From: Paenibacillus sp. JJ-223
GTDB taxonomy: Bacteria; Bacillota; Bacilli; Paenibacillales; Paenibacillaceae
Reading direction: 5' to 3'
Assembly (NCBI RefSeq): GCF_927798175.1
Contig: NZ_CAKMMP010000001.1
Span: 744,001 to 808,000, forward strand
DNA length: 64,000 nucleotides
Position 1 is the stretch's first letter. Every line of letters begins with the position of its first letter. This document shows positions 11,552-63,313 of this stretch, one piece after another. Made by a program: the position numbers and the translations under genes. Under the pieces are notes generated by a model. The model worked only from the letters and a program-made list of their open reading frames with translations, was not told the origin of the DNA and searched no databases.

Positions 11552-11655
11552 TGTCGAGGGACAAGAACATATTCCCATTGAAGTCGCTATTTTGGCGGCT
11601 TTTTTGGTTTTATAAGTACAAGTTATTGTCCCAATCCAAGGACAATAACTTGTAC
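11552..11655 (+). repeat. Intergenic repeat A1 with long palindrome
   Basis: It begins TGTCGAGGGACAAGAAC, continues with ATTCCCATTGAAGTCGCT and a terminator hairpin, and ends GTACAAGTTATTGTCC. The right end is extended into a perfect 16-bp inverted repeat, 11616-11631 and 11640-11655, with an 8-base loop. This is the first copy of the dispersed module A. The rest of the 11451-11769 gap holds no gene. Confidence 0.85.
11582..11605 (+). terminator. Intrinsic terminator inside repeat A1
   Basis: AGTCGC pairs with GCGGCT (one G-T pair) around a TATTTTG loop and is followed by TTTTTT. It should end the sugar operon. Confidence 0.7.
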
Positions 11656-11769
11656 CGATATTTATAGTCAATTCCCTGTTCATGAAGCTGTTCTCACGCG
11701 CTGCGTCGGGGCCGCCGGCGCTGCTAAGTGAGTTGGATCGGTGCGGGACCCCGTGCGCGTTGGGGCCGT

Positions 11770-13239
11770 TCAGGGCCGTTCAATGCCCTCGAAGATGCGC
11801 AGGACCTCGGCCGCATGGGCGGTGGGGTCGAATGGTGGGTTGCCAATCCCATGTGTGATAGGTTCCGTGGTCACGGAGCTCCAAAGCCGATCGTGCTTGC
11901 CTGCGGCAAAGTCGAGGAGAGCGTCGCGGACGAAGGTGTCCCGGATGGCTTGCTCGTCGCTATGTCGGGGGCGTTGCTGGCCGACGATGCCGTACATCTC
12001 CGTGCCGTGTACGGCTGGCGCACCCTCGACAGGGCCAACGGCGAGCAGGTGGGCGTTGCCGCCTGCAGCGGCGTGGGCGAGTGCCGCACGGGCGGCGGGC
12101 AGGGTATAGAGGTAGTCGGTCAAGAGCGCCCCGCGTACTTCGACAGGAGTTCGTCCGTTAACGTCGTAGGCGGCGACGATGCGCCGAGCACGGCTTCGAG
12201 GGATCCGCGACTTCGTTACCAATTCGTCAACGAGGTTGTCGATGCTGCCCGGGTCGAACTGCTCGGTCGCGTTGATAACCCACCAGTCCCCCTCGTTCGT
12301 CGCCGTGCTAAAGAGAATGTCGACGTCGCGGTGACGCCCGGATTCGAGGACACGCAGCGGCGTGTCTGCGAGAATAGCCCCGGTCTGAGAGTGGTCGTTC
12401 ACGATGCCAATCGTCGTGTTGTCGATGCCGTTTCGGTCGCCGATGTCACGTGGGCTAATCTTAACGAGCGTCTCGGCGAGGAGCTTCCCATCCAGGGTGA
12501 GCAGTTGTTCGGGTTCGTCCGCGATGCCGAGTTCGGTGAGAAACTTGATCGCTAGTTCTTCTGCCCACCAGGCCGGAACGATCCGGGATGCGCCGCCGGA
12601 GAACGCAGCGAGGCGCTGGTAGAGGCCGTCGGCCGCCGGAGCTGCAAGGAGCGCTATCGAGGAGAACGCGCCGGCGCTGTGGCCGGTGACGGTGACGTTC
12701 TGAGGGTCGCCACCGAAGCGAGAGATGTTCTCCTGCACCCATCTGAGCGCGGTGATGATGTCCTGCAGGCCGAGGTTAGTGGCATCCGCGAACGCGCCAC
12801 CGTATTGGGAGAGCGAGAGCCAACCGAACGGGCCGAGCCGGTAGTTTAGGGACACCCCGATGGCGCGGCCGGTCGCGGCGAGACCTGAGGCGTTCGAAGT
12901 GGTCTGGGTGTTCGCGCCGCGTTCGAAGCCGCCACCGTAGATGTAGACGACTACGGGGAGCGGTTCGTCGCCAGCGTTTTCGGGTGCCCAGACGTTGAGG
13001 TTCAGGCAGTCCTCGCTTAAACCGTTGTCAGCCTCCAACCAGCTATTGTCGCCCGGTTGGAGCGGGGCGGGTCCCTTTTGGTCGTATGGCAGATCCGGGT
13101 TAAACGGCAGCAAAATGGGTCGGCGGAAGCGTTCTGCACTGGCGTAGGGGATGCCTAGCCAGGAGCGGACCGCTTGGCCGGCGGTATTAGCGTTGTTCGT
13201 GTGATGATTCTTTCCGTTGAGAGTATGGTCAGGTGTCAT
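11770..13239 (-). CDS. Carboxylesterase type B, GC-rich, probably acquired
   Basis: About 489 residues of the type B carboxylesterase / para-nitrobenzyl esterase family: SEDCLNLNVW, VVVYIYGGGF as oxyanion region, and the nucleophile elbow GHSAGAFSS. It hydrolyses carboxylic esters; the natural substrate is unknown. The start is placed at 13239 because AGGAG (13248-13252 on the complement) lies eight bases before that ATG, while an in-frame ATG 18 bases further upstream overlaps this site and has none of its own. No signal peptide. Codon third positions are mostly G or C, unlike every neighbour, and the GC-rich stretch ends near 11690. The promoter side is AT-rich and host-like. This suggests transfer from a high-GC bacterium. 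Confidence 0.85.
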   Translation of the reverse strand: MTPDHTLNGKNHHTNNANTAGQAVRSWLGIPYASAERFRRPILLPFNPDLPYDQKGPAPLQPGDNSWLEADNGLSEDCLNLNVWAPENAGDEPLPVVVYIYGGGFERGANTQTTSNASGLAATGRAIGVSLNYRLGPFGWLSLSQYGGAFADATNLGLQDIITALRWVQENISRFGGDPQNVTVTGHSAGAFSSIALLAAPAADGLYQRLAAFSGGASRIVPAWWAEELAIKFLTELGIADEPEQLLTLDGKLLAETLVKISPRDIGDRNGIDNTTIGIVNDHSQTGAILADTPLRVLESGRHRDVDILFSTATNEGDWWVINATEQFDPGSIDNLVDELVTKSRIPRSRARRIVAAYDVNGRTPVEVRGALLTDYLYTLPAARAALAHAAAGGNAHLLAVGPVEGAPAVHGTEMYGIVGQQRPRHSDEQAIRDTFVRDALLDFAAGKHDRLWSSVTTEPITHGIGNPPFDPTAHAAEVLRIFEGIERP

Positions 13240-13266
13240 TTGTATTTCTCCTTTCATAGGTGAAGC

Positions 13267-13288
13267 GGTATGATCATTTTAGGCCATT
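13267..13288. promoter_or_regulatory. 22-bp motif shared with the araC-rarA promoter, copy 1
   Basis: GGTATGATCATTTTAGGCCATT lies upstream of the esterase gene. It matches 15002-15023 at 21 of 22 positions. A weaker direct copy, TATGACATATTTAGGACAT, lies at 13323-13341. Candidate operator; which regulator binds is inference. Confidence 0.5.
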
Positions 13289-13432
13289 ATTTATAATAAG
13301 AAAAGGTGAAATCAAGACTTGATATGACATATTTAGGACATGTCAGTCAAACCCATCTGCCTTAGAGTGATTAAGGATGCTGTGTTGGTGTGTACACGTC
13401 CAACATGAGGGAAGATATCTTGAATGCCGCAG

Positions 13433-14002
13433 CTACCGAGTATACTCACCTGAATACAGTGATCCCGCCTGAAATCCCAGGGATTTCGCAAAAAGCAGCG
13501 GATCACATTCCTCTTGCTGTTCCATTAGCTTTAACATAATTTGGGCACATGCCCGGGCATCATCGAGCGCATTATGGTGATTTAGTCGAATTCCGAAATG
13601 GTTAGAGATGATGTTTAATTTATGGGAGGATAGCTCTTGCAGCAGCTTTTTCCCAATTCTGTACGTACATAAATATTGTATCTCAGGATAGCTTTTTTCA
13701 GCGGCATCTAAGCAATACCTCAGCACGCTTATATCAAAAACAGCATTATGTGCAATAATAATTTCTCCGGATATTAGTGGTTCAATGGTTGTCCATAGTT
13801 CTCCAAATACAGGTTGCTTGTCAACCATGGAGGGTGTAATACCGTGGATGGCCATATTCATTCGATTAAACGGCTGTTGTGGATCAATTAGCCATTCATA
13901 TTCACCAGTTACAATCCCATCTCTAACTTGAACTAAACCCAGAGAGCACGCACTCGATCGGTTCAAGTTTGCGGTTTCAAAATCAATTGCTGTAAAATTC
14001 AA
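13433..14002 (-). CDS. DnaQ-like 3'-5' exonuclease (DEDDh)
   Basis: 189 residues forming one exonuclease domain. Motif Exo I is AIDFETAN (Asp7, Glu9), Exo II is AHNAVFDISVLRY, and Exo III is NHHNALDDARACA with the His and Asp of the DEDDh class. These resemble the epsilon proofreading subunit, but the protein stands alone and may act in repair or RNA turnover. The start is a TTG: AAGGAG lies eight bases upstream, and the nearby ATG runs into a stop after three codons. The gene follows the radical SAM gene by 51 bases on the same strand, so the two are probably co-transcribed. Confidence 0.88.
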   Translation of the reverse strand: MNFTAIDFETANLNRSSACSLGLVQVRDGIVTGEYEWLIDPQQPFNRMNMAIHGITPSMVDKQPVFGELWTTIEPLISGEIIIAHNAVFDISVLRYCLDAAEKSYPEIQYLCTYRIGKKLLQELSSHKLNIISNHFGIRLNHHNALDDARACAQIMLKLMEQQEECDPLLFAKSLGFQAGSLYSGEYTR

Positions 14003-14053
14003 CGGTTCATTCTCCTTTATATACCTATACCTTAAAAGAAGGATAGGCCCCGC

Positions 14054-14899
14054 CTATTCAAGCACTTTTCCTTTTAAGGGATAAACCTTATCGGAAGAAA
14101 TGAATATCATTTCCTCCGGAAAAAACTTTTTAAAATACTTTTCCACTCTAAGATGAATATCCATTTGATACCATCCGGACAACTCGTTCTCTTTAAACAA
14201 AAATGGCATGCCTAAGCGCTCGGAACGTTTCCCCCTTGTTCCATCTCCAATGTTAAGTGTGTCGATGTAGATCCGATCAACGATGGACTCCAGTGTTTTA
14301 GGAAAATCGGGTGTGAATGGAAGTACAGGCGAAATGGAAGCTTGGGTAGCGATGCCTACGTTATTCACTTCTTTTAATGCCTTCAAGCGTAACTTAATAC
14401 CTGGAGCATGGGGAGCGAACAATCGTTTCATATCTTCCCGATCTGTTTCTATAGTCATAGAGACAAGGACCTCGCATTTTTGATTTAGTTCAAGTAATAA
14501 ATGAAGATCCCTTACGACAAGAGGACTTCGTGTTTGGATCTGAAGGAAATCCGGAGGGTATTTGATCATTTCCTCTAAAATAGAGCGTGTTAGCTCCGTC
14601 TTCCGTTCCAGTGGTTGATAGGGATCTGTTGCAGTAGACATAAAAAGATGAATGGACTTATTTCTCCGGCGGAGATTGACCATCTCATTCCGATATTTGT
14701 CGGCCGCATTTGTTTTGATGCTTACCCATTCTCCCCATGGAGTATCACTGTACCTTTGAATAGGCAATTCCCTAACGTAGCAATACCTGCATCCAAAAGC
14801 ACAACCACTATAAGGATTTAATGAATGTGTGAAACCAACACTTGAATCTCCTTTCATTTCAGTTAAGATTTTTTTTGCTGTTATGCTGTTAACCTGCAT
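14054..14899 (-). CDS. SPL-like radical SAM protein
   Basis: 281 residues. The cluster motif is CAFGCRYCYV (C-x3-C-x2-C) near residue 33, which binds the 4Fe-4S cluster and S-adenosylmethionine. The rest fits the PA0069/Rv2578c branch related to spore photoproduct lyase: STATDPYQPLE, QTRSPLVVRDL and SISPVLPFTPDF. That branch is of uncertain function; repair of a nucleic-acid lesion is often suggested. The length is shorter than SplB itself. The start is the ATG at 14899 with GGAGG six bases upstream. It shares an operon with the exonuclease and is divergent from the AraC/rarA operon. Confidence 0.85.
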   Translation of the reverse strand: MQVNSITAKKILTEMKGDSSVGFTHSLNPYSGCAFGCRYCYVRELPIQRYSDTPWGEWVSIKTNAADKYRNEMVNLRRRNKSIHLFMSTATDPYQPLERKTELTRSILEEMIKYPPDFLQIQTRSPLVVRDLHLLLELNQKCEVLVSMTIETDREDMKRLFAPHAPGIKLRLKALKEVNNVGIATQASISPVLPFTPDFPKTLESIVDRIYIDTLNIGDGTRGKRSERLGMPFLFKENELSGWYQMDIHLRVEKYFKKFFPEEMIFISSDKVYPLKGKVLE

Positions 14900-14981
14900 G
14901 TTAGCCTCCCATATATCGGATGCTGATACTAAATTAAAGAGCGATCAGATCAATCCAAGTAACGCGAACTGACTGCCTGTT

Positions 14982-15023
14982 TTGTTTCGTCCCAATATTA
15001 TGGTATGATCATTTTAGGTCATT
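14982..15023 (+). promoter_or_regulatory. Promoter of araC-rarA with 22-bp motif, copy 2
   Basis: TTGTTT (14982-14987), a 16-base spacer and TATGAT (15004-15009) form a sigma-A-type promoter. The motif at 15002-15023 overlaps the -10 box and matches the esterase copy except at one base, so a bound regulator would block or shape initiation here. Confidence 0.5.
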
Positions 15024-15167
15024 TATCAGATTTGATGAAGGCAAAAACGGGAAATTTAATGATACTTTACAGACATTTCGCTTCGTCAAATACTCTTAAA
15101 GGAGGTTCGTGTAATCGTTCATTCATTCAAACAGGAAAATAATATAAGACCTCTTAAATATAAACCC

Positions 15168-16001
15168 GTGTTTTCTTACCCCTACGATCTGGAGATTTTT
15201 AGTGTATCTTCTCTCAAAGAGCGAACACCAGAGGAACGTATGAAAATCACTTATCGTTATGAATTTTATATGCTCATTTGTGTCACGGAAGGAATGTGTA
15301 CTCAATGGGTCGATTTTGAACCCATCGCTTGTAAGGAAGGAACACTGATAATAGTAACACCAGGACAAGTCCATAATTTTGGACATGATGAAAACTGGGA
15401 CGGATGGGTCATTCTATTCCGTGAAGAATTCCTTCTTCCTGCTTCACTTACGTTGAGTGAACTGAATTTAACGTTTGATATCGGAAGAACGCCTAATAGT
15501 TTGACTTTAAATAATACAGAGCTGCATCGGGCAAACACTTTAATCGATCAAATGGTTCAAGACTCTTTAATTCAAGTAGCCAAAGAGGATGTTCATATGT
15601 TGTTACGGTTTCAGCTTTATGCATTCGTAGCATGGCTCAACATTATTCATAAACAAAAAAATATCCCTACTCCTTCTCAGGTCTCACCAAAGTTTTTAAA
15701 ATTTCAAGAATTAGTGGAGAAAAATTTTGCCAAGTTAAATCATGTTAGTGACTATGCTGCCCTTTTAAATTGCACAGAAAAAACGTTAACACGGGTTACG
15801 GTCGCAGCTGTTGGAATAAGTGCTAAAGCTTTCATATCCGCTCGAATTAGTCTCGAAGCTAAACGTTTATTAATGCATACAGATTACTTGATTAGCGACA
15901 TTGCAGAAATGCTTAATTTTCAAGAAACCACTCACTTTAGTAAATTTTTCAAACGGGAAACTGGCTATACGCCTGTCGAATTCCGAAAGCAGAACCTTTA
16001 A
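15168..16001 (+). CDS. AraC-family transcriptional regulator
   Basis: Cupin-like N-terminal sensor (EGTLIIVTPGQVHNFG near residue 60) followed by the AraC double helix-turn-helix (ISDIAEMLNFQETTHFSKFFKRETGYTPVEFRK). The GTG at 15168 is the first canonical start, but it has no ribosome binding site. The frame is open further upstream to 15114, where AAAGGAGG (15098-15105) sits eight bases before an ATC codon, and the extra 18 residues read like protein. Translation may therefore start at ATC 15114. It lies 13 bases before rarA, so both are one transcript. It may control its own promoter and the esterase through the shared 22-bp motif; this is inference. Confidence 0.85.
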   Translation: MFSYPYDLEIFSVSSLKERTPEERMKITYRYEFYMLICVTEGMCTQWVDFEPIACKEGTLIIVTPGQVHNFGHDENWDGWVILFREEFLLPASLTLSELNLTFDIGRTPNSLTLNNTELHRANTLIDQMVQDSLIQVAKEDVHMLLRFQLYAFVAWLNIIHKQKNIPTPSQVSPKFLKFQELVEKNFAKLNHVSDYAALLNCTEKTLTRVTVAAVGISAKAFISARISLEAKRLLMHTDYLISDIAEMLNFQETTHFSKFFKRETGYTPVEFRKQNL

Positions 16002-16014
16002 ATGGAGTGATACT

Positions 16015-17343
16015 GTGATACAAGGAACATTATTTGATAATGAACATGATCGACCGTTGGCTAATCGTGTGCGTCCTCGATCGTTGGAAGACTTTATCGG
16101 ACAAAAACATTTACTTGGCCCTGGAAAAGTTCTGCAGGATATGATCAAAAATGATCAAGTGTCTTCTATGATATTTTGGGGCCCTCCAGGTGTTGGCAAA
16201 ACTACACTGGCTAAAATTATTGCCAATCAAACCAAGTCTAAATTTATTGATTTTAGTGCTGTAACCAGCGGTATTAAAGATATCCGGAATGTAATGAAGG
16301 AAGCTGAGGGAAACAGGCAATTAGGGGAGAAAACCCTTCTATTCATCGATGAAATTCATCGCTTTAATAAGGCACAACAGGATGCTTTTCTTCCGTATGT
16401 GGAAAAAGGGAGCATTATTCTCATCGGCGCGACAACCGAAAATCCATCGTTTGAAGTTAACTCGGCTTTGTTATCCCGCAGCAAAGTTTTTGTCCTTCAT
16501 CAATTAAGCAGTGAAGATATTGTTGAATTATTAAAAAAAGCGATTTTGGATCCTAGAGGATACGGAGATCAAAAGATCGGTTTTGAAGAGGGCGTACTAT
16601 CTGCTATCGCGGAATATTCAAATGGCGATGCCAGAGTGGCATTAAACACCTTAGAAATGGCTGTGCTAAATGGAGAGAAACAAGCTGAAGCTATTGAAAT
16701 CAGCAAAGAAGGGCTGCTTCAAATTATTCATCGAAAATCATTATTGTATGACAAAGATGGAGAAGAACACTACAATATCATTTCCGCATTGCATAAATCC
16801 ATGCGAAATAGTGATGTAAATGCATCTATTTATTGGTTGTCTCGAATGTTGGAATCAGGGGAAGATCCTTTATTTATTGCTCGTAGGCTCGTTAGGTTTG
16901 CAAGTGAGGACGTGGGTTTGGCAGACAATAGGGCTTTGGAAATCGCTGTTTCGGTGTTTCAAGCATGTCAATTTATAGGGATGCCAGAGTGCGATGTACA
17001 TCTAACACAAGCCGTTATCTATCTGACCCTGGCTCCCAAATCAAATTCTGCTTACTTGGCTTACCGTTATGCGAAAAAAGATGCCCTACATTCCATGAGT
17101 GAACCTGTTCCTTTGCAACTTCGAAACGCTCCAACGAAGCTTATGAAAGAGCTGAACTATGGTAAAGGGTATCAGTACGCCCATGACACAGAAGAAAAGC
17201 TAACAACGATGCAGACTATGCCAGATTCCCTGATCGGACGCGAATATTACCATCCGACAACACAGGGGTCTGAATTTAAAATTAAACAAAGGATGGAAGA
17301 AATTACAGCATGGCACAAGAAGAAAAACAACAATCATGAATAG
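16015..17343 (+). CDS. rarA: Replication-associated recombination protein A (AAA+ ATPase)
   Basis: 442 residues of the RarA/MgsA/WRNIP1 family, which acts at stalled replication forks. Seen: RPRSLEDFIGQ near the N-terminus, Walker A GPPGVGKTTLA, Walker B LLFIDEIHRF, sensor 1 GATTENPSF, and the C-terminal clamp-loader-like and tetramerisation part (SMRNSDVNASIYWLSRML, LAPKSNSAYLAYRYA). The start is GTG 16015 with GGAG upstream; the frame is open further left but that part overlaps araC. The N-terminus VIQGTLFDNEHDRPLANRVRP is usual for the family. Linkage to an AraC regulator is not the usual context. Confidence 0.93.
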   Translation: MIQGTLFDNEHDRPLANRVRPRSLEDFIGQKHLLGPGKVLQDMIKNDQVSSMIFWGPPGVGKTTLAKIIANQTKSKFIDFSAVTSGIKDIRNVMKEAEGNRQLGEKTLLFIDEIHRFNKAQQDAFLPYVEKGSIILIGATTENPSFEVNSALLSRSKVFVLHQLSSEDIVELLKKAILDPRGYGDQKIGFEEGVLSAIAEYSNGDARVALNTLEMAVLNGEKQAEAIEISKEGLLQIIHRKSLLYDKDGEEHYNIISALHKSMRNSDVNASIYWLSRMLESGEDPLFIARRLVRFASEDVGLADNRALEIAVSVFQACQFIGMPECDVHLTQAVIYLTLAPKSNSAYLAYRYAKKDALHSMSEPVPLQLRNAPTKLMKELNYGKGYQYAHDTEEKLTTMQTMPDSLIGREYYHPTTQGSEFKIKQRMEEITAWHKKKNNNHE

Positions 17344-17368
17344 GCTTTACAGATAGGAGGATACCACA

Positions 17369-17707: not shown

Positions 17708-17795
17708 CTTATGTGACCTTTCTGCAATGTTACGCAACAACGATTTGGATCTGAGAGATCGCGCAGCACGCTTAAAGCAGGGTACTTTGTATTTG

Positions 17796-17896: not shown

Positions 17897-17916
17897 AAAA
17901 ATGTCGTATAAAGTGA

Positions 17917-23861: not shown

Positions 23862-23893
23862 CATTCAAGCTAACGGGAATCTTTACTTCAATG
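23862..23893 (+). repeat. Intergenic repeat B1 (short)
   Basis: Contains AAGCTAACGGGAATC inside an imperfect inverted repeat (CATTCAAGCTA with TACTTCAATG), the core of dispersed module B. Confidence 0.6.
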
Positions 23894-23968
23894 TAGTGTA
23901 GGAACCGGTTTAGATGAAGCTGACTGGGAATGGAGTTTCACTAGCTGCCTCTAGAAACAAGAATTTAG

Positions 23969-24934: not shown

Positions 24935-24953
24935 TATTAAACTAACGGGAACG
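24935..24953 (+). repeat. Intergenic repeat B2 (core only)
   Basis: TATTAAACTAACGGGAACG, joined directly to the truncated frame at 24946. Confidence 0.55.
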
Positions 24954-25164
24954 TTATCTGGTTGCCAAAGTCGATGGGAAAAAAGTGAATCTCCCAGACG
25001 TACCTTCAGAGAAGAAATCTCTCATGGGAGGTATGGAGAACAATCAATTATGGGATTCTGCCAAGACGATTAATTTCCTCAAAGAGGTACAGTCCCAAGG
25101 AGCCGATCCGAATGTGGACGGAGCTGGGGGTTACCTGGCCGTTGAATGTCGTACTGTCTCCTAA
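24946..25164 (+). pseudogene. 5'-truncated coding remnant, family not recognised
   Basis: An open frame of 72 codons begins right after the TAA inside the repeat core CTAACGGG and reads YLVAKVDGKKVNLPD, LWDSAKTINFLKEVQSQG, GAGGYLAVECRTVS, then TAA. The composition is protein-like but there is no start codon with a binding site near the 5' end. I do not recognise the parent gene. The abrupt join to module B suggests the rest was lost in a rearrangement. Confidence 0.45.
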
Positions 25165-26777: not shown

Positions 26778-26816
26778 TGTCGGGGTTCAAGAACATATTC
26801 CCATTAAAAATCGCTA
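26778..26816 (+). repeat. Intergenic repeat A2 (left half)
   Basis: TGTCGGGGTTCAAGAACATA then TTCCCATTAAAAATCGCT: the left end of module A with several substitutions, cut off before the terminator, right next to the IS remnant. Confidence 0.6.
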
Positions 26817-26827
26817 TTTGGTCATAA

Positions 26828-36285: not shown

Positions 36286-36388
36286 ACGGTTAAGCTGTCG
36301 GGTGAAATATAGCTTAATGATGCCCCGAAGACAGCCGACCACAAAGATCGGCTGCCTTCGTTGCGATAACGAGCCGATTAATTCAAAT
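36286..36388 (+). repeat. Intergenic repeat B3 (full)
   Basis: TTAAGCTGTCGGGTGAAATA, AGCTTAATGATG, then the GC hairpin AGCCGACC-acaaa-GATCGGCT, CTTCGTTGCGATAACGAG. One of the most complete module B copies. Nothing else is seen before the XRE gene at 36506. Confidence 0.75.
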
Positions 36389-36505: not shown

Positions 36506-36922
36506 ATGAAGATTGGTTCGATCATCAGAAAACTAAGGTTGAAAAGTGGTATTACCCAAGAGCAACTGTCCAATGCTCTAGCCGTTTCGGTTCAGACAAT
36601 TTCAAGATGGGAGACATCCGCTAATTATCCTGACTTAGAAATGCTGCCCTTAATTGCAAGGTATTTCCGAGTTACAACAGACTATTTGTTAGGAATAGAA
36701 GGAGGAAATAATAACATGAAATTGCTTAAAACCGTTGAAACATTTGAAGTTCCTAGCCGGGAAGAAGCTGAATCGTTGGTAAAAAAATTCTCAAGCGAAA
36801 AATTCCCTGTATTGCTAGGTCATAGAATTACGGAAAATGATGATGGGGCGATTATTCTTGAGGTAGAAAAGAAGTTTGGCGTTAACCTTGAAGATATGCC
36901 ATGGAAAGCTAACCAGGGTTAG
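36506..36922 (+). CDS. XRE-family regulator with possible internal start
   Basis: 138 residues. Residues 1-65 are a standard helix-turn-helix (KLRLKSGITQEQLSNALAVS, VQTISRWETSANYPDLEMLP, YFRVTTDYLLGIEG). The rest (MKLLKTVETFEVPSREEAES onward) is a separate small alpha/beta segment of unknown family. GGAGG at 36701-36705 sits 10 bases before an in-frame ATG at 36716, so a second 68-residue product could be made from the same gene. The gene stands alone between repeat modules B3 and D/C2. Confidence 0.8.
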   Translation: MKIGSIIRKLRLKSGITQEQLSNALAVSVQTISRWETSANYPDLEMLPLIARYFRVTTDYLLGIEGGNNNMKLLKTVETFEVPSREEAESLVKKFSSEKFPVLLGHRITENDDGAIILEVEKKFGVNLEDMPWKANQG

Positions 36923-37066
36923 CCCGATTGCCGATTTGATGTATATCTAAACATTGATCACATGCACTTAAAACTTCATTAAGTACAACAATACATGAAA
37001 ATGTTCACATTGTTATGGACAACTGACACGATGAGAGGTTAAACACGGGTGGTCATGTATTAATAA
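36923..37066 (+). repeat. Intergenic repeats D and C2
   Basis: CCCGATTGCCGATTTGATGT (module D) is followed by module C at 36965-37066, which shares long stretches with 17796-17896, for example GACAACTGACACGAT. No gene lies between 36923 and 37595. Confidence 0.7.
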
Positions 37067-45470: not shown

Positions 45471-45689
45471 TGTCGAGGGACAAGAATAATGTGGCATTTC
45501 TGATTTAATGTTTATCTAAACATTAGCAATTTGAAAAATCATACCTCATGCCAAAAGCGAATTACCATAAAATCTAGCTAAATAGACGGTTTATAACTTT
45601 TTTGAGCTGAGGATAAGTGTACATTGTACCATTGATCAGTCAAAAAACTAATTTTACCGAGATATCATTTAAGCTAACGGGCTGATGCT
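45471..45689 (+). repeat. Composite intergenic repeat A5-D-B4
   Basis: Starts TGTCGAGGGACAAGAATAAT (A), has TTTAATGTTTATCTAAACAT (D-like) at about 45505, and ends TTTAAGCTAACGGGCTGATG (B) at 45669-45688. The middle is unique AT-rich sequence. This is the longest A-D-B unit; no gene in 45372-45809. Confidence 0.65.
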
Positions 45690-49959: not shown

Positions 49960-50056
49960 TGTCGAGGGACAAGAACATGAGCCGATTACCGATTAGATAA
50001 GTATATGATTGGATTTTTATACAATTTAATCAAGCTAACAGGCAGGATGTGTTACG
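49960..50056 (+). repeat. Composite intergenic repeat A6-D-B5
   Basis: TGTCGAGGGACAAGAACATG (A) is followed by GCCGATTACCGATTAGATAA (D) and, 27 bases on, CAAGCTAACAGGCAGGATGT (B). At under 100 bp it shows the A-D-B order most compactly. Confidence 0.75.
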
Positions 50057-50214: not shown

Positions 50215-50335
50215 GGTCGGGTCACAAAAACATAGTAACAATAGAAGCTGCTGATTATGCGGCTTTTTATATTTATGTTATCAAGTTCTAGTCAAAACAC
50301 AATGAACAAGAACATGGCTAAATTCCCGATATGAT
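50215..50335 (+). repeat. Diverged intergenic repeat A7 with terminator-like hairpin
   Basis: GTCGGGTCACAAAAACATAG at the left, AGCTGC with GCGGCT plus TTTTT in the centre, and ATCAAGTTCTAGTCAAAACA at the right. It resembles module A but with many changes. The wider 49914-50672 gap contains no convincing gene. Confidence 0.45.
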
Positions 50336-50552: not shown

Positions 50553-50605
50553 TGTCATATGACATTTTGACACTGTTGTACATAACAACGAGTGCAGTAG
50601 GATAC
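50553..50605 (+). promoter_or_regulatory. Regulated promoter of the erythromycin-esterase-like gene
   Basis: TGTCATATGACA (50553-50564), then TTTTGACACTG, and exactly 25 bases after TTGACA the sequence TAGGATAC. The promoter of the sensor-domain gene (52444-52496) has the same parts at the same spacing, so both should answer to one regulator. Confidence 0.65.
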
Positions 50606-52034: not shown

Positions 52035-52060
52035 AAAGTCGCTTAGATGCGGCTTTTTTG
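52035..52060 (+). terminator. Terminator after the erythromycin-esterase-like gene
   Basis: AAGTCGC pairs with GCGGCTT, followed by TTTTT. The stem resembles the one inside module A, but the flanks do not. The stretch from here to 52440 shows no gene I can support. Confidence 0.8.
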
Positions 52061-52443
52061 TTTTAACGATCCATGTTTGTCAAAAACCGATAGACTTGAA
52101 GGTTTCTTTGCAGGATCTGGAATTCCGAGTTCCGAGTTCTTTCTGTACCTTATTTTTTCAAAACATATTAGTGAAAACATCAGAGCGCTTATGAGCGTCA
52201 GGGATCCATCTGGTCTAAATGCCATATATAAATTATGCGGATTGTAGAGGAACATCTGGAGTATATGGCTCCATGATATGGACTGCTGCTTTGGCATAGT
52301 GCTTAATTACTTTTTTTCCTGTAGTATTGTAAGAGAATAGTTGCGGATTGTACCTGTATCACTGGCACACAGGGGTCATCCTGAGTTTGAACAATTCTAC
52401 TGTGCAGTTGGTTATGACTGTAGCTCACAATCCGTTCATTTTA

Positions 52444-52496
52444 TGTCATATGACATTTTGACACTGGCAGATTTGACATCAAGAGCAGTAGGATAC
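52444..52496 (+). promoter_or_regulatory. Regulated promoter of the sensor-domain / fused two-component region
   Basis: TGTCATATGACA (52444-52455), TTTTGACACTG, then 25 bases after TTGACA the sequence TAGGATAC, matching 50553-50605. An autoregulated promoter is likely. Confidence 0.65.
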
Positions 52497-55414: not shown

Positions 55415-55416
55415 AT

Positions 55417-55498
55417 GTCGAGGGACAAGAACCTATTCCCATTGAAGTCGCTAATTTAGCGGCTTTTTCATGTTATCGGTACAAGTTCTTGTCCCGAC
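55417..55498 (+). repeat. Intergenic repeat A8 (best full-length copy)
   Basis: 82 bp bounded by GTCGAGGGACAAGAAC (left) and GTTCTTGTCCCGAC (right), which are inverted repeats of each other apart from two extra bases. The centre is an intrinsic terminator: AGTCGCT (55446-55452) with AGCGGCT (55458-55464), then T5. Module D (GATTGCCGATTAGTCATAT) and a C-like piece follow to about 55596; nothing else is seen before 55988. Confidence 0.85.
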
Positions 55499-55987
55499 CC
55501 AAGAACAAGAACATTGTCCGATTGCCGATTAGTCATATATCTAAGTGAAAACGATTAATTAAAACCTCAATAAGCAGCATAATGTAGGACAGTTTTGCAT
55601 TTCAATTAGATGAAGATCTGAGTAGAAGTGATGTTGTGTCTCTTTGGAGAGACTGAAACGCTAAATGCTGTTTAATGGTCAAAGAGACCCGTTTCATTAA
55701 TCGGAAGCACTTCAATTTAAACTGTGACCTCATTTGAATTAGATCAAACAAACTCGTCAAAGCACTTTGAAAACTCAACTAAGTTAGTCTTCTATTTTAT
55801 ATTGAGATAGATCTTCCATAACTAGCATTTTGGCTTGATCTTGCATCAAGAAATTGAGTCATGGAGTCCACCTCTAGGAGAATCGAGAATTAAGGAATGT
55901 AATTAATAGTAAACAAACGAACAAAAAGTGATACACTAAATTCACGGGTTCTGATGTTTTTACTGAAAAACAGTGTAGGATGATGAT

Positions 55988-57797: not shown

Positions 57798-57808
57798 GAC
57801 AACCTACC

Positions 57809-57845
57809 TAAGAAGCCGGCAACGTATATAGTTGCCGGCTTCTTA
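57809..57845. terminator. Perfect terminator hairpin
   Basis: TAAGAAGCCGGCAAC and GTTGCCGGCTTCTTA, 15-bp perfect arms with loop GTATATA. The weak T-run on the + strand is replaced by TTCTTA. Confidence 0.8.
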
Positions 57846-57852
57846 GGGGTAT

Positions 57853-57914
57853 AGTCACATGACTTTAATATGACAAAAGAGCACTGTCACTTTATGACTT
57901 TTTCACCCTATACT
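57853..57914 (+). promoter_or_regulatory. Activator-type promoter of the CPBP protease gene
   Basis: TATACT (57909-57914) has no good -35. Instead GTCACATGACTTT (from 57855) and GTCACTTTATGACTTTT (from 57887) form two related elements upstream, as expected for a NarL-type activator. Confidence 0.55.
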
Positions 57915-57953
57915 CATAACTATGATCAAGCCATAGAGGAGATGATTTAAGAC

Positions 57954-58832
57954 ATGAAGAAAAGATCTGCACAAAAAGAACATTCGCAGATGGATGAGAA
58001 ATTAAGCAAATGGAGATTATTTTGGTGCTTTCCAATAGTCTGGATGGTTGCGGGGGCTATCAGCATAATTCTTGTTGATGCATTCATCCGGCCGCTAGGG
58101 GAGCAAGTACCGGGCTTGCTTTCTCTTCTTTTGACACTAACGATGAGCTTTCTGGCCATCATAGTCTATATGCTCACCATGAAATATTTGGCCCGTCGAT
58201 CCATTCCTGAGTTATCAAAAAAGGGCGCAGGGTTTGAAGCTGTTATGGGAGCACTAACCGGGGTTATCTTTATTGCCTTATCCACGATTATTATTGTTTC
58301 ATTGGGAGGTTACTCCTTTCAATGGGCGAATAACGCAGATACGGTTACTAATCTAATCGCTTCTATTGAAGCCGCTTTAGGCGCAGCCATTGTCGAAGAA
58401 CTTATCTTTCGTGGACTAATGTTTCAAGCCATGAATAAATTGCTGGGAAATTGGGCCGCACTCGCTGTGACTTCTCTATTCTTTGGAATCGCCCATCTTG
58501 GGAATGCAGGAGCAACATTATGGAGTGCGTTCGCCATAACCTTAGAAGCCGGTGTCCTGCTTGGAGCCGCATTTATGTGGCGACGGAATCTGTGGTTTGC
58601 CATGGGACTGCACTTTTCTTGGAATGCACTTGAAGGTTTGCTTGGTATTCCTGTTTCTGGACACACTACAGCCGGTCTGTTAATTGTGAAAATGCAAGGT
58701 CCTTATCTTCTCACTGGAGGTGATTTTGGACTTGAGGGGTCTGTAGTTCCGGTTATCATCAGCCTGCTGATTGCCATTCCCATGCTGTATACCGCTAATC
58801 GAAATCGCAATCTGCCAACGAATTTTACATAA
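57954..58832 (+). CDS. CPBP family intramembrane metalloprotease
   Basis: 292 residues, about seven or eight hydrophobic helices. The family motifs are present: EELIFRGLMF (EExxxR), FFGIAHLGNAG (FxxxH) and HFSWNALEGL (HxxxN), so the glutamate/histidine active site is intact. Bacterial members (Abi/CAAX-like) cut membrane peptides, and some give self-immunity to bacteriocins. GAGGAGATGA lies 10 or so bases before the ATG. It follows the kinase/regulator pair and its promoter carries repeats fitting that regulator. Confidence 0.9.
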   Translation: MKKRSAQKEHSQMDEKLSKWRLFWCFPIVWMVAGAISIILVDAFIRPLGEQVPGLLSLLLTLTMSFLAIIVYMLTMKYLARRSIPELSKKGAGFEAVMGALTGVIFIALSTIIIVSLGGYSFQWANNADTVTNLIASIEAALGAAIVEELIFRGLMFQAMNKLLGNWAALAVTSLFFGIAHLGNAGATLWSAFAITLEAGVLLGAAFMWRRNLWFAMGLHFSWNALEGLLGIPVSGHTTAGLLIVKMQGPYLLTGGDFGLEGSVVPVIISLLIAIPMLYTANRNRNLPTNFT

Positions 58833-59030
58833 AGCGAGGTAGTAGATAGTATGTTCCTGAACACTATGATACCCTTGTTGTTTCAGACCGGATTCCAACC
58901 CGCCGTATATAAAAAATACTCTGCAATTGCGAGAGGATGTCTTTCTTGGTAGGATGGTCCAGGTTCAGGAACAAAGTGCCACCCAATAAGTTGCCAGCTG
59001 CCGGCTGCGACTTTAGGTGATAATGAAGAT

Positions 59031-59123
59031 GTATTAAACTAACGGAAAACGTTAGCCCAGTAAAACCCTTGAGGCAGTCGACCATAGTGATCGGCTGCTT
59101 CGTATTGATTTATTGGTCTGCAG
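59031..59123 (+). repeat. Intergenic repeat B7 (full)
   Basis: GTATTAAACTAACGGAAAAC, GTTAGCCC, then the hairpin GCAGTCGACC-atag-TGATCGGCTGC and TTCGTATTG. Here CTAACG and CGTTAG also pair. Confidence 0.75.
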
Positions 59124-59154
59124 GAGTGAAAAGAGGAAGTAAACGTTAATGTTG

Positions 59155-59189
59155 TTAAGGTACAAGAACGTTTTCCCATTGAAGTCGCT
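59155..59189 (+). repeat. Intergenic repeat A9 (left half)
   Basis: GTTAAGGTACAAGAACGTTT then TCCCATTGAAGTCGCT; the terminator half is replaced by unrelated sequence. Confidence 0.65.
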
Positions 59190-59210
59190 AGCCTCTTTTG
59201 AACTAAAAAT

Positions 59211-59242
59211 GGCCGGTTTCCTGGATGCTAAGGATACCGGCC
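59211..59242 (-). terminator. Terminator of the sigma/anti-sigma operon
   Basis: GGCCGGTTTCC and GGATACCGGCC pair with one mismatch; in the minus direction ATTTTT follows. Confidence 0.75.
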
Positions 59243-59302
59243 TCGTATTACTTTTTACCAATCTCGATATTTACGCGTACATCCTCTTAGTTGAATGGAT
59301 AA

Positions 59303-60352
59303 TTACTTTGAAGGAGTTTCAGTTTTGTGCTCAATAACTTGTAATACTTTTAGTTCAACAGCTTTTAACATTTGTTCATTTGAACGATTGCTTTTTGGAA
59401 CATCGCCATTTTTTTCACCTTGAATCTGTCCGTCAGCCTGCGTTTTTGCAATGACGTCAATCACTTGTTGTTTTGATACATTTCTAGATGCTGCAATCTC
59501 CACAACAGATTTACCCTTTTCTAATTCTTGTTTTAATTCTGCTGGGCTGATTTTAAGTAAAGCAAACAGTTTTTCATCATTTAGATAGGCATCGGCAAAA
59601 TAATCTGGTTTACCATTTGTAGAGAAGAAACCTTCTACCTTGTTTGAAGGTATAGTCTCAACTCCGATCAGAGAAACACTGATGGAATTGCCCTGAACAA
59701 ATGCCTGGTAGAACGGTGTTGTTGATCCCTTAGTGCTGTAATTCAATATAAACGTTTTTTGATTCGAGTTCTCCATTTGCTCCATAGAAAACTCGTACTT
59801 TTCGATGTTACCATACAATTTATCAATGAGAAAATCTACCTTCGACCTGATTTCCTGATCGGTTAAAGCGGTGAGCGGCTTCTCCTTAGGCTCCCAATTC
59901 TCTTGAATCACGTGTTCAATCGCACCGGTAATACCGTTTATATGAAGTGTAATCTTTTTGCCGGTCCCTCCCTTCTCCTGTAGGATGATGCTTGTTTGAA
60001 CACCTTGAACGTTGCTTGCATCGATGATCTCAAACGCTTTTGTTTCGGGAAATGCGCTGTACAGCTTCTCAAGTGCTGCTTTGCCAATCTCATCCGCTTT
60101 GACTTGCTCAGCAGTCAATGATGATCTGGTAAACATATCAATCAAGGTAGGTGCCGCAAATGCTGCACTTGGAATCAAAATAGCAACAGCAACAATTCCA
60201 CCAATCAATCGTTTTTTCATGGGTCTTCCGCTCCTTTTTTGTTGCAAATATTGAGAATAGGATTGTTCTATTCGATTGGAAATGGCCGGTGGGCACTCCA
60301 CCGTTTCGGCTTCTTTGTGCAGATGTTCACGGATTTTGCGTTCAATAGTCAT
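59303..60352 (-). CDS. Anti-sigma-factor-like membrane protein
   Basis: 349 residues from ATG 60352, which overlaps the sigma gene by 11 bases; the longer frame upstream only runs back through sigma coding sequence. A cytoplasmic part of about 45 residues (MTIERKIREHLHKEAETVEC) is followed by one membrane helix (RLIGGIVAVAILIPSAAFAA) and a large external domain with a PepSY-like look (KKITLHINGITGAIEHVIQE). Near the C-terminus is ISPAELKQELEKGKSVVEIA, a helical motif seen in other secreted Firmicute proteins. No zinc-binding motif. The overlap with the ECF sigma gene makes an anti-sigma role likely. Confidence 0.75.
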   Translation of the reverse strand: MTIERKIREHLHKEAETVECPPAISNRIEQSYSQYLQQKRSGRPMKKRLIGGIVAVAILIPSAAFAAPTLIDMFTRSSLTAEQVKADEIGKAALEKLYSAFPETKAFEIIDASNVQGVQTSIILQEKGGTGKKITLHINGITGAIEHVIQENWEPKEKPLTALTDQEIRSKVDFLIDKLYGNIEKYEFSMEQMENSNQKTFILNYSTKGSTTPFYQAFVQGNSISVSLIGVETIPSNKVEGFFSTNGKPDYFADAYLNDEKLFALLKISPAELKQELEKGKSVVEIAASRNVSKQQVIDVIAKTQADGQIQGEKNGDVPKSNRSNEQMLKAVELKVLQVIEHKTETPSK

Positions 60353-60914
60353 TGATCTTTTCCATCCTTTCTGGGGGGAGATTCCATATGTTTTTTCGAA
60401 GCGCCTGCAGGCCAGCATGATATCTCGACTTGACTGTACCCAATGGAATATCGAGCAAAGTCGCGGTTTCCTCGAGCGTATAGTCATGAAAAAAGCGGAG
60501 GATAATCACCGTTCGCTGTTTGTCGGTCAGTTTCTTAATGGCCTGCGATATCATGTCGTTCGTCCCATCCATCAACACCGCGGGTTGATCCCAATGAGGC
60601 TCTTCCCGAGAGAAGGAACGGATCCGTTCAAAAATTCGGAATCTCCGCCAGCTCTTGACCCGAAGTCTCTGCACTTGACGGATCACCAAGCCGTGCAACC
60701 AGAAGTGGAAAGGTCTACTCGTATCGTAGTTGGCAAGTGAGGTCCACATTTGCATATAAATCTCATTCATGACATCTTCCCGATCCTGCTGATGATCCAC
60801 CAGAAAGGTGACGGTCCGATAGACGTCCTGATAAGTGGCATCATATATCGTATGAAACGCCTGTTGATCACCATCTTTCATCCTTTTGAGTAATTGATAC
60901 ATATCACTTTCCAT
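60342..60914 (-). CDS. ECF-type RNA polymerase sigma factor
   Basis: 190 residues. Region 2 is FHTIYDATYQDVYRTVTFLV, DREDVMNEIYMQMWTSLANY; region 4 is LTDKQRTVIILRFFHDYTLE, ETATLLDIPLGTVKSRYHAG. No other sigma regions are present, so it is an ECF factor. AGGAGG lies before ATG 60914. The stop overlaps the anti-sigma start by 11 bases. Upstream, GAACCTTTTT on the minus strand resembles an ECF -35 element, so autoregulation is likely. The stress signal is not evident. Confidence 0.93.
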   Translation of the reverse strand: MESDMYQLLKRMKDGDQQAFHTIYDATYQDVYRTVTFLVDHQQDREDVMNEIYMQMWTSLANYDTSRPFHFWLHGLVIRQVQRLRVKSWRRFRIFERIRSFSREEPHWDQPAVLMDGTNDMISQAIKKLTDKQRTVIILRFFHDYTLEETATLLDIPLGTVKSRYHAGLQALRKNIWNLPPERMEKINDY

Positions 60915-60944
60915 TCAGAGGGCCCTCCTGTAAGCAGCTTACAC

Positions 60945-60978
60945 CCTATATTGTCTCTCTATCGGAAAAAGGTTCGGT
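60945..60978 (-). promoter_or_regulatory. Possible ECF promoter of the sigma gene
   Basis: GAACC (60975-60971 on the minus strand) followed by TTTTT is a typical ECF -35; the -10 is unclear, GAGACAAT being the nearest candidate. Confidence 0.35.
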
Positions 60979-61063
60979 TTTCTTTTTGTTTTTTTGTAAG
61001 CTCATCAGTAATTAGTGTGAGGTTTATGGCTTGAATAAACAAGCCGTAAGGTATGGAAGAAAA

Positions 61064-61101
61064 GAAAATAAGCCTCTAACCCATGAGAGAAGCTTATTTT
61101 C
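61064..61101. terminator. Hairpin terminator
   Basis: GAAAATAAGC and GCTTATTTTC form a 10-bp stem extended by TCT with GAGA; symmetric, able to work in both directions. Confidence 0.7.
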
Positions 61102-61142
61102 ATTATTATTCATGTCTTCGGATTCAGGCTGAACATGAATGA

Positions 61143-61337
61143 TGCGTAATAATCAGTCTCGAACGAAAGGGCCAGTATGAACTTATCATAAAATACTTCG
61201 AGCTAGGAGAGGATGGCCGACACACGCCAGATAACTTGAAGGATTTGTTGAAGCTTTTCCTTAGACTTCGCGAAATCATTGTGGTTGTCGTTATGCATAG
61301 GAGCTGGGATTTAAAAGGAGGATACTCATTGAGCTAA
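61143..61337 (+). pseudogene. Possible coding remnant joined to repeat B8
   Basis: An open frame of about 64 codons reads SLERKGQYELIIKYFELGED, PDNLKDLLKLFLRLREIIVV and stops inside the repeat core GAGCTAACGGG. Protein-like composition, no start with binding site, no recognised family. The rest of 60915-61497 holds only the hairpin and repeat. Confidence 0.3.
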
Positions 61338-61414
61338 CGGGAAACTGTAGCTTAATAAAGTCAAGAAAGCATCCGATCCAAGTGATCGGCTGCTTTGGTT
61401 TAACAAACGGGCAG
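61328..61414 (+). repeat. Intergenic repeat B8 (full)
   Basis: TTGAGCTAACGGGAAACTGT, AGCTTAATAAAG, hairpin GCATCCGATCC-aag-TGATCGGCTGC, then TTTAACAAACGGGCAGG, which repeats the ACGGGCAGG core. Confidence 0.75.
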
Positions 61415-61497
61415 GTTAGTTTAGTCATAACCGTACTTTCCAAAAAAAGTGTGTGGTAAACTATTCGAAACAAGATACTTTTGGGGGTGAAAAAACT

Positions 61498-62433
61498 GTG
61501 AGAGACTCTGTAGTTACACAAGCAGAACGAATTGTAAGCGATGTACTTCTTGAAAAAGTAAAAACATCATACCAGGTCATAGGGAAAGGCTTCGTAAATC
61601 AGGTTTTCGTAGTCGAAACAGAGAGTCGTAAAGTCGTTGTTCGCATGAACGACTCAGGTACATATCCAAGCTATGTGAAAGAAAAATGGTGTATTGAACA
61701 AGCTGCCGCAATTGGCATTCCCGGACCTGAGGTGTTGTCTATTGGCATAATTGATAGAACTGCATATATGATTCAAGCTTTCGTTGATGGAGACAACGGG
61801 GTAGATAGTACGGTTTTTAAGTCCGATATTTGGAGGCAGCTTGGCAAATATGCCAAACTTATTCATTCGATCCCAGTGAAGGGATATGGGGAAAATCTGA
61901 TAGATCCAGTCCATGGTGAGTTTCATTCACCCTCGCATGCAGGGTCGGACGGCAGTTGGCTAGGATATGTGCAATATAATATCAATAGTTTGACGGAGTA
62001 TGATCAATTGATTGAGCTTGGAGTAATCAATCCAATGAAATCGCAGAGAGTGCGAAAACTGTTTGAGAATTTGAAAAAAGAAACGTTCCGCTTCGGTTTA
62101 ATTCATGGAGATATTTCATTGAAGAATACGATCGTCAATCAGACGGGACAAGTAATATTATTGGATTGGGGTAATGCAGAAGTAAGAACGGTGCCGCATG
62201 GAGAAATTATTTGGCTGATGCGGTGCCATATCCTAGACGGAAATCCGAATATAGAAGAATTCAAAGCATTTCTAGACGGGTACGGAATAAGTGAAGAAAA
62301 CCTGACTGATATGAGACATTTGCTGCTATTAAGCGCGTTTGATAACCTCAGATGGGCCATTGATCGAAATCCGGACCTGATCGAATCCTATGCTGCGTTC
62401 GCTAAAAAAGTTGTTGATATGATTATGGACTAG
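61498..62433 (+). CDS. Aminoglycoside phosphotransferase-like kinase
   Basis: About 311 residues of the APH/choline-kinase fold. N-lobe: GKGFVNQVFVVET and the Lys/Arg strand KVVVRMND. Catalytic loop: LIHGDISLKNTIVN (HGD, Asn) and the metal Asp in VILLDWGNAEV. Small-molecule phosphorylation is expected; antibiotic, homoserine or sugar substrates cannot be told apart. The start is GTG 61498 behind GGGGGTG; a GTG 45 bases upstream keeps the frame but lacks a site. Single gene flanked by repeats B8 and B9. Confidence 0.85.
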   Translation: MRDSVVTQAERIVSDVLLEKVKTSYQVIGKGFVNQVFVVETESRKVVVRMNDSGTYPSYVKEKWCIEQAAAIGIPGPEVLSIGIIDRTAYMIQAFVDGDNGVDSTVFKSDIWRQLGKYAKLIHSIPVKGYGENLIDPVHGEFHSPSHAGSDGSWLGYVQYNINSLTEYDQLIELGVINPMKSQRVRKLFENLKKETFRFGLIHGDISLKNTIVNQTGQVILLDWGNAEVRTVPHGEIIWLMRCHILDGNPNIEEFKAFLDGYGISEENLTDMRHLLLLSAFDNLRWAIDRNPDLIESYAAFAKKVVDMIMD

Positions 62434-62482
62434 CGGAGATTGAGCAATGTTTTTGTATCTCAGTTAAACAAGATGAAGAAAA

Positions 62483-62559
62483 TGATTGAACTAACGGGGA
62501 ACAATAGCTCAAGTTCAAACGACGGCAGACGGTCTCAGAACGATCGGTTGCCGTCGTGA
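62483..62559 (+). repeat. Intergenic repeat B9 (full)
   Basis: ATTGAACTAACGGGGAACAA, TAGCTCAAG, then the GC hairpin CGACGGCAG...GATCGGTTGCCGTCG. The hairpin stem differs in sequence from other copies yet stays paired, so structure seems to be kept. Confidence 0.75.
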
Positions 62560-62609
62560 AATAATATGAGTACAATTAAAGCGAAAATTATCAGTAAGGG
62601 ATGGTCGAA

Positions 62610-63107
62610 ATGGTTAATACATCAACTACCGAACTAAAGATGACACGTTATTTTCATGTTAATGCAGATAAATTGTTTGATGCATGGTTGAACTCAGAAA
62701 TGATTAAAAAATGGCTTTTTACTTTGGAAACAACAAATAAAGTGACAAAGAACGAACCTCACGTCGGTGGGACATGGGAAATTGTTGATCATCGCGGTGG
62801 TAAAGATTACAGAGCGATTGGTGAGTACCTAGAAATTGATCCACCAACTAAATTAGTTTTCACATTTAGGATGCCTCAGTTTAATGACTTAGAGGATAGA
62901 ATTACTGTAGAGATTAAACCCCATGAAAAGGGTTGCGAGATGACCTTTACACAGGTGATTATCGTTGCTCATGAAGAAGGTTGGACTTCAGAAGATATCA
63001 AAAAAGCTCTTACAGAATACCATGATGGTTCTGAACAAGGATGGGATTTAATGTTTGAGGGGTTAAAACAATTAGTTGAAACAGGTAAATTAAATGATCC
63101 ATCTTAA
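62610..63107 (+). CDS. SRPBCC (AHSA1-like) domain protein
   Basis: 165 residues forming one START/SRPBCC domain: YFHVNADKLFDAWLNSEMIK, VGGTWEIVDHRGGKDYRAIG, EYLEIDPPTKLVFTFRMPQF and the C-terminal helix GWDLMFEGLKQLVE. Such proteins bind hydrophobic ligands or act as Aha1-like partners; no catalytic residues are evident. The start is ATG 62610, nine bases after AAGGG; an ATG at 62601 directly abuts that site. Single gene between repeats B9 and B10. Confidence 0.85.
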   Translation: MVNTSTTELKMTRYFHVNADKLFDAWLNSEMIKKWLFTLETTNKVTKNEPHVGGTWEIVDHRGGKDYRAIGEYLEIDPPTKLVFTFRMPQFNDLEDRITVEIKPHEKGCEMTFTQVIIVAHEEGWTSEDIKKALTEYHDGSEQGWDLMFEGLKQLVETGKLNDPS

Positions 63108-63206
63108 ACTGTTAGCATGAGAGGGCTATAGTTTAATGATGACCAGAAGGCAGTTGGCTACAAAAATCGGCTGCCTTCGTTGCGCTAGCTGGCAGGATTG
63201 TTTAAG
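63103..63206 (+). repeat. Intergenic repeat B10 (full)
   Basis: ACTGTTAGCATGAGAGGGCT, ATAGTTTAATGATGACCAG, hairpin AAGGCAGTTG...CGGCTGCCTT, CGTTGCGCTAGCTGGCAGG. Closely matches B3 in the second half. Confidence 0.75.
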
Positions 63207-63216
63207 AAGGCTACCG

Positions 63217-63313
63217 CATTGGACAATAACATGTTCCTATTGCCGATTAGACGTGTATCTAATCGGCATCTTGCCCTTTAATTCATTAAACTAACGGACA
63301 GGATAGTTTAATG
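63217..63313 (+). repeat. Composite intergenic repeat A10-D-B11
   Basis: CATTGGACAATAACATGTTC (A-like), then D as a perfect hairpin GCCGATTAGA-cgtgta-TCTAATCGGC, then B11 with ATTAAACTA and TAGTTTAAT as perfect inverted repeats around ACGGACAGGA. Confidence 0.75.

Follow-up and report, generated by a model that had tools for sequence, protein, structure and literature searches.

What are the short repeats that recur between the genes of a 64,000-nucleotide stretch of the Paenibacillus sp. JJ-223 genome? This stretch, referred to here as the window, covers bases 744001-808000 of contig C1 (885,375 bp) in a draft genome of 46 contigs. An initial annotation had described four modules, A, B, C, and D, recurring in one orientation and in the fixed order A-D-(C)-B. 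The modules proved to be real, intergenic, and uniformly oriented, but they are not four units in a fixed order. Comparison of copies from many species identifies A and D as the two ends of a single hairpin core of approximately 158 bp (the A-D core). One kind of B is an alternative tail of this core, and the other is a separate three-hairpin element of approximately 95 bp. The elements are tied to one strand relative to replication, and gene blocks shared between genomes often end at them. We tentatively favor reading them as mobile elements, non-autonomous and with palindromic ends, that would insert at replication forks from single-stranded DNA and that then likely became seams of gene-block exchange.

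The element starts with TGTCG and carries repeated GGACAAGAAC motifs. In the core, TGTCGAGGGACAAGAACAT... is succeeded by a terminator-like hairpin with T behind it and by a 20-bp stem; beyond the stem lie the motif GGACAAGAACATAGTCC and, at the 3' end, the hairpin TTAGAT/ATCTAA. TGTCGAGGGACAAG and ATATCTAA, or alternatively the CTAACGGG boxes, are taken as the end sequences. The 5' edge is sharp, as 223 of 403 matches to the nhmmer profile used to score the core, which was built from relatives' copies, begin at position 1 and are joined there to unrelated DNA. Alternative tails occur at the other side; one ends in CTAACGGGCAGG (30 of 94 within 200 bp), and a longer one, which follows A-D cores in relatives, is the C module. 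In B proper (approximately 95 bp), a variable hairpin separates box 1 from box 2. In the following, C1, C3, C4, and C5 are contigs of the window's own genome, G-numbers denote genomes, and L-numbers denote loci. L129 contains two core copies head to tail with a 158-bp period. The short form in which A is followed by D (49960-50009) appears to have lost the segment between two GGACAAGAACATG copies; an internal deletion of the same kind is observed between G022 and L208. The elements of the window are listed with the search or score that supports each.

11552-11659, +: A-D core, positions 1-107 (5' edge, terminator-like hairpin, long palindrome); nhmmer, 102.7 bits
17794-17916, +: C module, a long 3' tail common to many relatives, here without a core match; repeat search
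23868-23904, +: B-type box CTAACGGGAATC; repeat search and box match
24936-24960, +: B-type box CTAACGGGAACG; box match
26778-26819, +: A-D core, positions 1-41, then insertion-sequence-like DNA; profile, similar continuation in L219
33374-33466, +: A-D core, positions 8-97; 58.6 bits
36242-36281, +: A-D core, positions 1-40, leading into a B element; 30.9 bits
36290-36370, +: B element with a GGCAGCCGA/GATCGGCTGCC-type hairpin; fold z -3.2 for 36295-36370
36920-36954, +: D, the 3' part of the core (128-162); 14.4 bits
36963-37084, +: C module, long tail after D; repeat search
45471-45522, +: short A-D form; A motif, weak profile match of 9.7 bits
45674-45685, +: B-type box 2; box match
49960-50009, +: short A-D form with an apparent internal deletion; A motif and profile
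50035-50046, +: B-type box 2 tail CTAACAGGCAGG; box match
50216-50332, +: divergent A-D core (2-116); 39.1 bits
52035-52089, +: weak A-D core fragment (29-86); 17.3 bits
55072-55083, +: B-type box 2; box match
55416-55545, +: most complete A-D core of the window (1-159); 114.9 bits
55554-55604, +: C module fragment; repeat search
59033-59105, +: B element, here preceding A; repeat search and boxes
59154-59191, +: A-D core, positions 2-39; 21.9 bits
61328-61425, +: complete B element (box 1, terminator-like hairpin, box 2); fold z -3.5
62485-62560, +: B element, box 2 unclear; motif and box match
63119-63205, +: B element; repeat search
63211-63266, +: D, the 3' part of the core (107-162); 35.0 bits
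63285-63313, +: box 2 tail CTAACGGACAGGATAGTTTAAT; box match

The single orientation claimed for the modules holds throughout the window. The A motif (up to three mismatches) has seven matches against 0.14 expected and CTAACGGG has seven occurrences against 1.25 expected, one of which (28989) falls within an open reading frame (ORF); both sets lie entirely on the + strand. Box matches with at most one mismatch are also all on + (10/10), at least one of them (15950, within an ORF) probably by chance, and three two-mismatch box matches are on -. The core profile yields 12 matches on + and five on -; each of the latter overlaps a + match because the core contains a palindrome, leaving no independent - match. 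Two weak + matches (50216-50332 and 52035-52089) had gone unnamed in the initial annotation. For GATCGGCTGCC (up to one mismatch), eight matches were found against 1.24 expected, five on + and three on -, the latter all away from module sites. The D motif (five matches, 2.25 expected) is weak evidence by itself. The fixed order is broken at two sites: B precedes A at 59033-59191, and B, D, and a CTAACGGG-type box succeed one another at 63119-63313. Partial and interrupted copies agree with the suggestion that the element is decaying, and the expectation that it would match no Rfam family was borne out, with no match at gathering score in the window and three sub-threshold matches at seven loci, none reaching gathering score at the elements. 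The most complete core (55416-55545) lies directly 3' of an AraC-like reading frame that is apparently cut off.

Folding of a single strand of the core gives -37.3 kcal/mol (z -9.0), and 92.6% of cells in the proposed structure form standard pairs across 42 copies. Two-sided compensatory cells number 22, against 4.8 in shuffles, and none of 500 shuffles reaches 22; the covariation score is 0.082 versus 0.051. Further pair types are not unusual (29 vs. 27.4). Nine pairs show two-sided change, compared to 4.1 in shuffles and 6 to 10 in slid controls, and as this count resembles the slid controls, support for the structure comes from the cells and the score, mainly in the 20-bp stem. The 3' hairpin is 90.9% paired over the 42 copies, and box hairpins are present in B.

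Three cores end at position 41-43, in the terminator-like hairpin (window 26778-26819, L219:112-154, and own C1:863143-863184). The DNA beyond, similar in the window and L219, is insertion-sequence-like, and the hairpin may be an insertion hotspot. In L203 (Paenibacillus tundrae, 2783-3794), an element which we take to belong to the IS200 family, and which encodes a 138-amino-acid protein with an HVH motif, lies in an A-D core just past the terminator-like hairpin.

The strand of the elements was followed in four arrays fetched up to the GC-skew reversal: 460 kb of the own genome (two contigs), 400 kb of G022, 380 kb of G034, and 400 kb of G016. Leading strand and terminus were inferred everywhere from GC skew and dnaA, with the G-rich strand taken as leading. 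A search for dif with the B. subtilis sequence (up to three mismatches) found none, so terminus placement rests on these two indicators. In each array the independent A-D matches share a single strand (own genome, 39/39; G022, 32/32; G034, 50/50; G016, 27/27), and none of the four has an independent opposite-strand core match. Outside the array, the own genome has weak matches on either strand that cover the terminator-like hairpin only. The arrays end approximately 2-20 kb short of the skew reversal. GC skew is positive throughout the C1 array and reverses at approximately C3:503.7-505.3 kb, the nearest solid copy being C3:507190-507377; the reversal and the last copy are at 3.800 and 3.796 Mb in G016, approximately 3.83 and 3.827 Mb in G022, and approximately 730 and approximately 750 kb in G034.

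The suggestion of a strand-linked function is strengthened by the behavior of the elements on both replication arms and on plasmids, where they track the local GC-skew strand. In single 10-kb pieces, element strand agrees with local skew in G023, G024, and G025 (A-D and B, +) and in G064, G069, G078, and G090 (B, -). G020 has copies on both arms; its skew reverses at approximately 2.2925 Mb and the element strand switches between 2.2937 and 2.2985 Mb, with a single + copy approximately 1 kb beyond the reversal. The stretch examined of plasmid pY5S7-1 (50 of 375 kb) carries ten + copies followed by one -, in the 5-kb bin where skew drops to +0.026 before becoming negative, while that of pART37 (45 of 543 kb) has negative skew and all 11 copies on -. 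In a census of at least 117 named stretches chosen by the exact A motif, 226 of 232 copies among the loci listed are on the G-rich strand, as are 419 of 539 ORFs of at least 150 amino acids in the same loci. The six remaining copies come from four loci of weak skew (at most 0.048). B boxes are on the G-rich strand in 239 of 249 cases, and seven of the ten exceptions belong to L338-L340, loci that were fetched for being discordant. G080 has nearly no skew. A denser B run on one strand was also observed at own C4:308848-342796 (strand -), in a region of negative GC skew and low G+C.

Gene blocks shared between the four arrays were chained at 85% or higher identity and at least 800 bp, giving 104 blocks with 208 ends. 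An element lies within 50 bp of 46 ends in either or both genomes (circular-shift mean 7.9, maximum 22 in 300), within 300 bp of 90 ends (control mean 27.8), and in both genomes within 150 bp of 21 ends (0.4 on average and at most 3 after shifting). All 104 blocks keep their orientation; with the threshold lowered to 500 bp, four of 41 matched stretches are inverted. Some array pairs are partly syntenic, and the 22 blocks of the own genome differ in order from those of the others. A block of 2.4 kb occupies different places in the four genomes and has neighboring elements in every one of them, and a block of 5.8 kb has such neighbors in three. One clean present/absent pair was found. In G064, which is of the same species as the window's genome and was compared over one 10-kb piece, a 98.8% identical stretch of 8.9 kb starts approximately 85 bp after a B element that is absent there in the own genome. 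Where the downstream side alone is shared (seven pairs representing four cases), the core is nearly identical over the aligned part in three of four (background in one of four); where the upstream side alone is shared (five pairs, four cases), core identity is 0.68 to 0.90 (background 0.853). Core identity thus follows the shared downstream side, suggesting that the element tends to travel with the downstream block. Of 140 elements, 11 lie within an ORF.

At a threshold of E 1e-6, the core is present in 39 of the 59 genomes searched (own included), spanning four of 17 genera. The core or a part of it occurs on nine plasmid records, all from Paenibacillus, where the listed matches coincide with no annotated feature. 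None of the phage records searched carries the core, and the viral contigs searched gave one match. The contig ends C1:885375 and C3:515113 of the own genome both lie in A-D cores; the draft assembly therefore probably broke at the repeat, at which the two contigs may meet.

The elements may have inserted from single-stranded DNA at replication forks, with exposed lagging-strand template as the substrate, as in IS200/IS605 and in Tn7 with TnsE. Insertion of this kind would set both the single orientation and the place near the inferred terminus. The enzyme would be encoded elsewhere or have been lost, and blocks would now be exchanged by recombination between co-oriented copies. As no enzyme was identified, the mechanism is one that we infer. 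Neither of the two kinds of 3' end tested showed a target duplication: among the 36 copies that finish in box 2, the best of 100 tests reached z 3.3 and lay away from the junction, and among the 45 that finish in CTAA and have no known tail, the best of 84 reached z 2.4. This result speaks against Tn7 and fits single-strand transposition.

Several observations count against the mobile-element reading. The 220 5' flanks share no fixed target word, having just an A at -3 in 118. The initial annotation had proposed a search for an integrase or transposase acting on the repeats; each of the four genomes searched contains tyrosine recombinases (five in the own genome), one of them within the G016 array, but these share no place in the arrays, and neither a transposase nor a recombinase could be linked to the elements. 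For serine recombinases, the own genome has no match and the G022 array contains one, and no transposase was found among 29 window ORFs scanned. More than half of the block ends (118/208) lie beyond 300 bp of any element. Of 23 comparisons in which both flanks are conserved (counting from either side), 20 also retain the element; it is thus normally kept along with its flanks, and no recent hopping is seen. Real exceptions to the B strand occur in G065 and G069, and looser box patterns place 10 of 92 matches in the four arrays on -. The profile score rises significantly toward the terminus in just two of four arrays. Given the lack of a fixed target word and of an enzyme, the mobile-element reading is held only tentatively, ahead of a cassette system and of homology arms.

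Two further lines were rejected. An age gradient toward the terminus is suggestive at most (Spearman p 0.0007 in G022, 0.03 in G034, 0.23 in the own genome, and 0.34 in G016). Six candidates for an autonomous copy, with a gene between the core halves, were not convincing; among the loci considered as such, L137 and L203 both proved to be one IS200-like element lodged in a core.

It is also conceivable, if rather unlikely, that the arrays are a terminus-anchored, replication-polarized exchange system, in which blocks bounded by co-oriented elements would move between Paenibacillus species as single strands at forks and so build a one-way array next to the terminus. Such a system, if real, would combine integron-like behavior with a different site and enzyme.

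An integron-like system proper, in which the elements, B above all, are tyrosine-recombinase sites and the intervening genes are cassettes taken up and shuffled in one orientation, is unlikely. The sites are one-way, and blocks often start and end at them without inversion (0/104). The boxes form inverted arms of 11-6-11 or 11-7-11 bp, like a tyrosine-recombinase core. B together with its downstream DNA switches partner at the box 1 edge (L177/L225 and L177/L264), and at other loci the genus has an IntI-like integrase accompanied by attC-like repeats. However, none of 75 Paenibacillus genomes has an IntI integrase above the TIGR02249 cut-off, although integrase-profile matches occur in all 75. 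An attC-like fold of B was rejected: B single strands form local hairpins in four of four cases rather than a long attC-type hairpin, and RNAalifold found no consensus structure for 31 B copies. Shared stretches reach 25 kb, so these are not single-gene cassettes. The IntI-like locus has different repeats, the best box match there having four mismatches. The cassette-like array proposed in the initial annotation therefore survives in that shared blocks often end at elements, but not as a classical integron.

The IntI-like locus merits description in its own right. L332 (G022:C1:1653001-1663000) encodes an IntI-like tyrosine recombinase of 369 amino acids, whose best solved relatives are the XerC-like 4a8e and IntI4 2a3v, followed by a row of small same-strand ORFs with attC-like repeats (TAACATAATATTCACG...CGTGAATACAGGAACGTTA) between them. 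L333 in the own genome (C5:19001-27000) contains a decayed integrase and three such repeats. The L332-type locus looks like an integron in Firmicutes.

As unlikely as the integron-like system is the possibility that the elements are passive homology arms, that is, old dispersed repeats which no longer move and between whose co-oriented copies foreign blocks recombine, for example after natural transformation. Orientation would then be inherited, because only direct repeats give viable exchanges. Conservation of the element wherever its flanks are conserved is as this would have it, as are block ends at elements in both partners and the orientation kept in every block. By itself, however, it leaves unexplained the use of the G-rich strand on both arms and on plasmids, and it accounts neither for a sharp 5' edge at arbitrary DNA nor for head-to-tail tandems.

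A selected chromosome signal, either a replication-strand mark (AIMS/KOPS-like) or polar terminators that must face the fork, is less probable again. Orientation by the G-rich strand, with a switch at the skew reversal, would be natural for such a signal, copies become commoner toward the terminus in some arrays, and the core holds a terminator-like hairpin followed by T. Against this, the A-D matches listed for five closed genomes numbered from the origin (G016, G022, G023, G024, and G025) are confined to one arm, which would leave one side of the terminus unmarked; the elements are moreover accessory, decayed, and also present on megaplasmids.

Finally, it is highly improbable that ordinary intrinsic terminators and insertion-sequence debris are alike here by chance: part of the core and of B is terminator-like, the weak matches outside the own array cover just that hairpin on either strand, and 118 of the 129 intergenic joints come after a + gene, but the length of a core found across the genus (39/59 genomes), its sharp edge, its compensatory changes, and an orientation beyond gene bias are taken to refute this for A-D and complete B copies, in line with the earlier judgment that random terminators fit worse.

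Other repeats were noted in passing. Self-comparison revealed more array-region repeats of approximately 165-236 bp at own C1:449650, 500830, 501790, 572247, 575800, 627373, and 681024. In the window, a 53-bp pair of TGTCATATGACATTTTGACA... (50553-50605 and 52444-52496, 81% alike) precedes an erythromycin-esterase-like gene and a sensor-domain gene, and is possibly a shared regulatory site.

No description or name for the repeat family was found in the open-access literature, which is weak evidence; the terms sought are absent from the main-text part of PMC10969869. The individual features each have precedents, but none was seen for the combination of near-absolute fork polarity, terminus-side place, and gene-block seams. 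Fork orientation of mobile DNA is usually a statistical bias, whereas that of A-D is near-absolute over the genus and plasmid stretches examined, and these elements also lie at the joints of exchanged gene blocks. If an enzyme is found, the elements would allow the influence of replication polarity and of the terminus on the accessory genome of Gram-positive soil bacteria to be tested in a natural setting.

As set out in PMC5371812, Tn7 via TnsE and IS200/IS605 insert at replication forks in a replication-following orientation and prefer termination sites. The present elements are like IS200/IS605 in their hairpin ends, absence of target duplication, replication-following orientation, and preference for the termination region, traits of that family set out in part in PMC5371812. 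In contrast to IS200/IS605, they have neither a transposase gene nor a fixed target word of 4-5 bases at the left edge, and often travel with downstream genes. With Tn7/TnsE they share a place near termination sites and one orientation relative to the fork (PMC5371812), but they differ from Tn7 in having no 5-bp target duplication and no inverted core copies (no terminal inverted repeats). Integron cassette arrays and attC clusters without integrase likewise have one-way sites between exchanged genes; they are set apart from the elements here by the lack of an IntI above the cut-off, a different fold, and larger blocks. The TGTCG start and the repeated GGACAAGAAC motifs are reminiscent of Tn7-like ends. 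The bcr1-type repeats of the Bacillus cereus group are group-specific, short, intergenic, and mobile-looking, with conserved secondary structure. The present elements fit the same description; compared with bcr1, the replication-locked strand and the place at exchange seams are tested traits of the elements described here.

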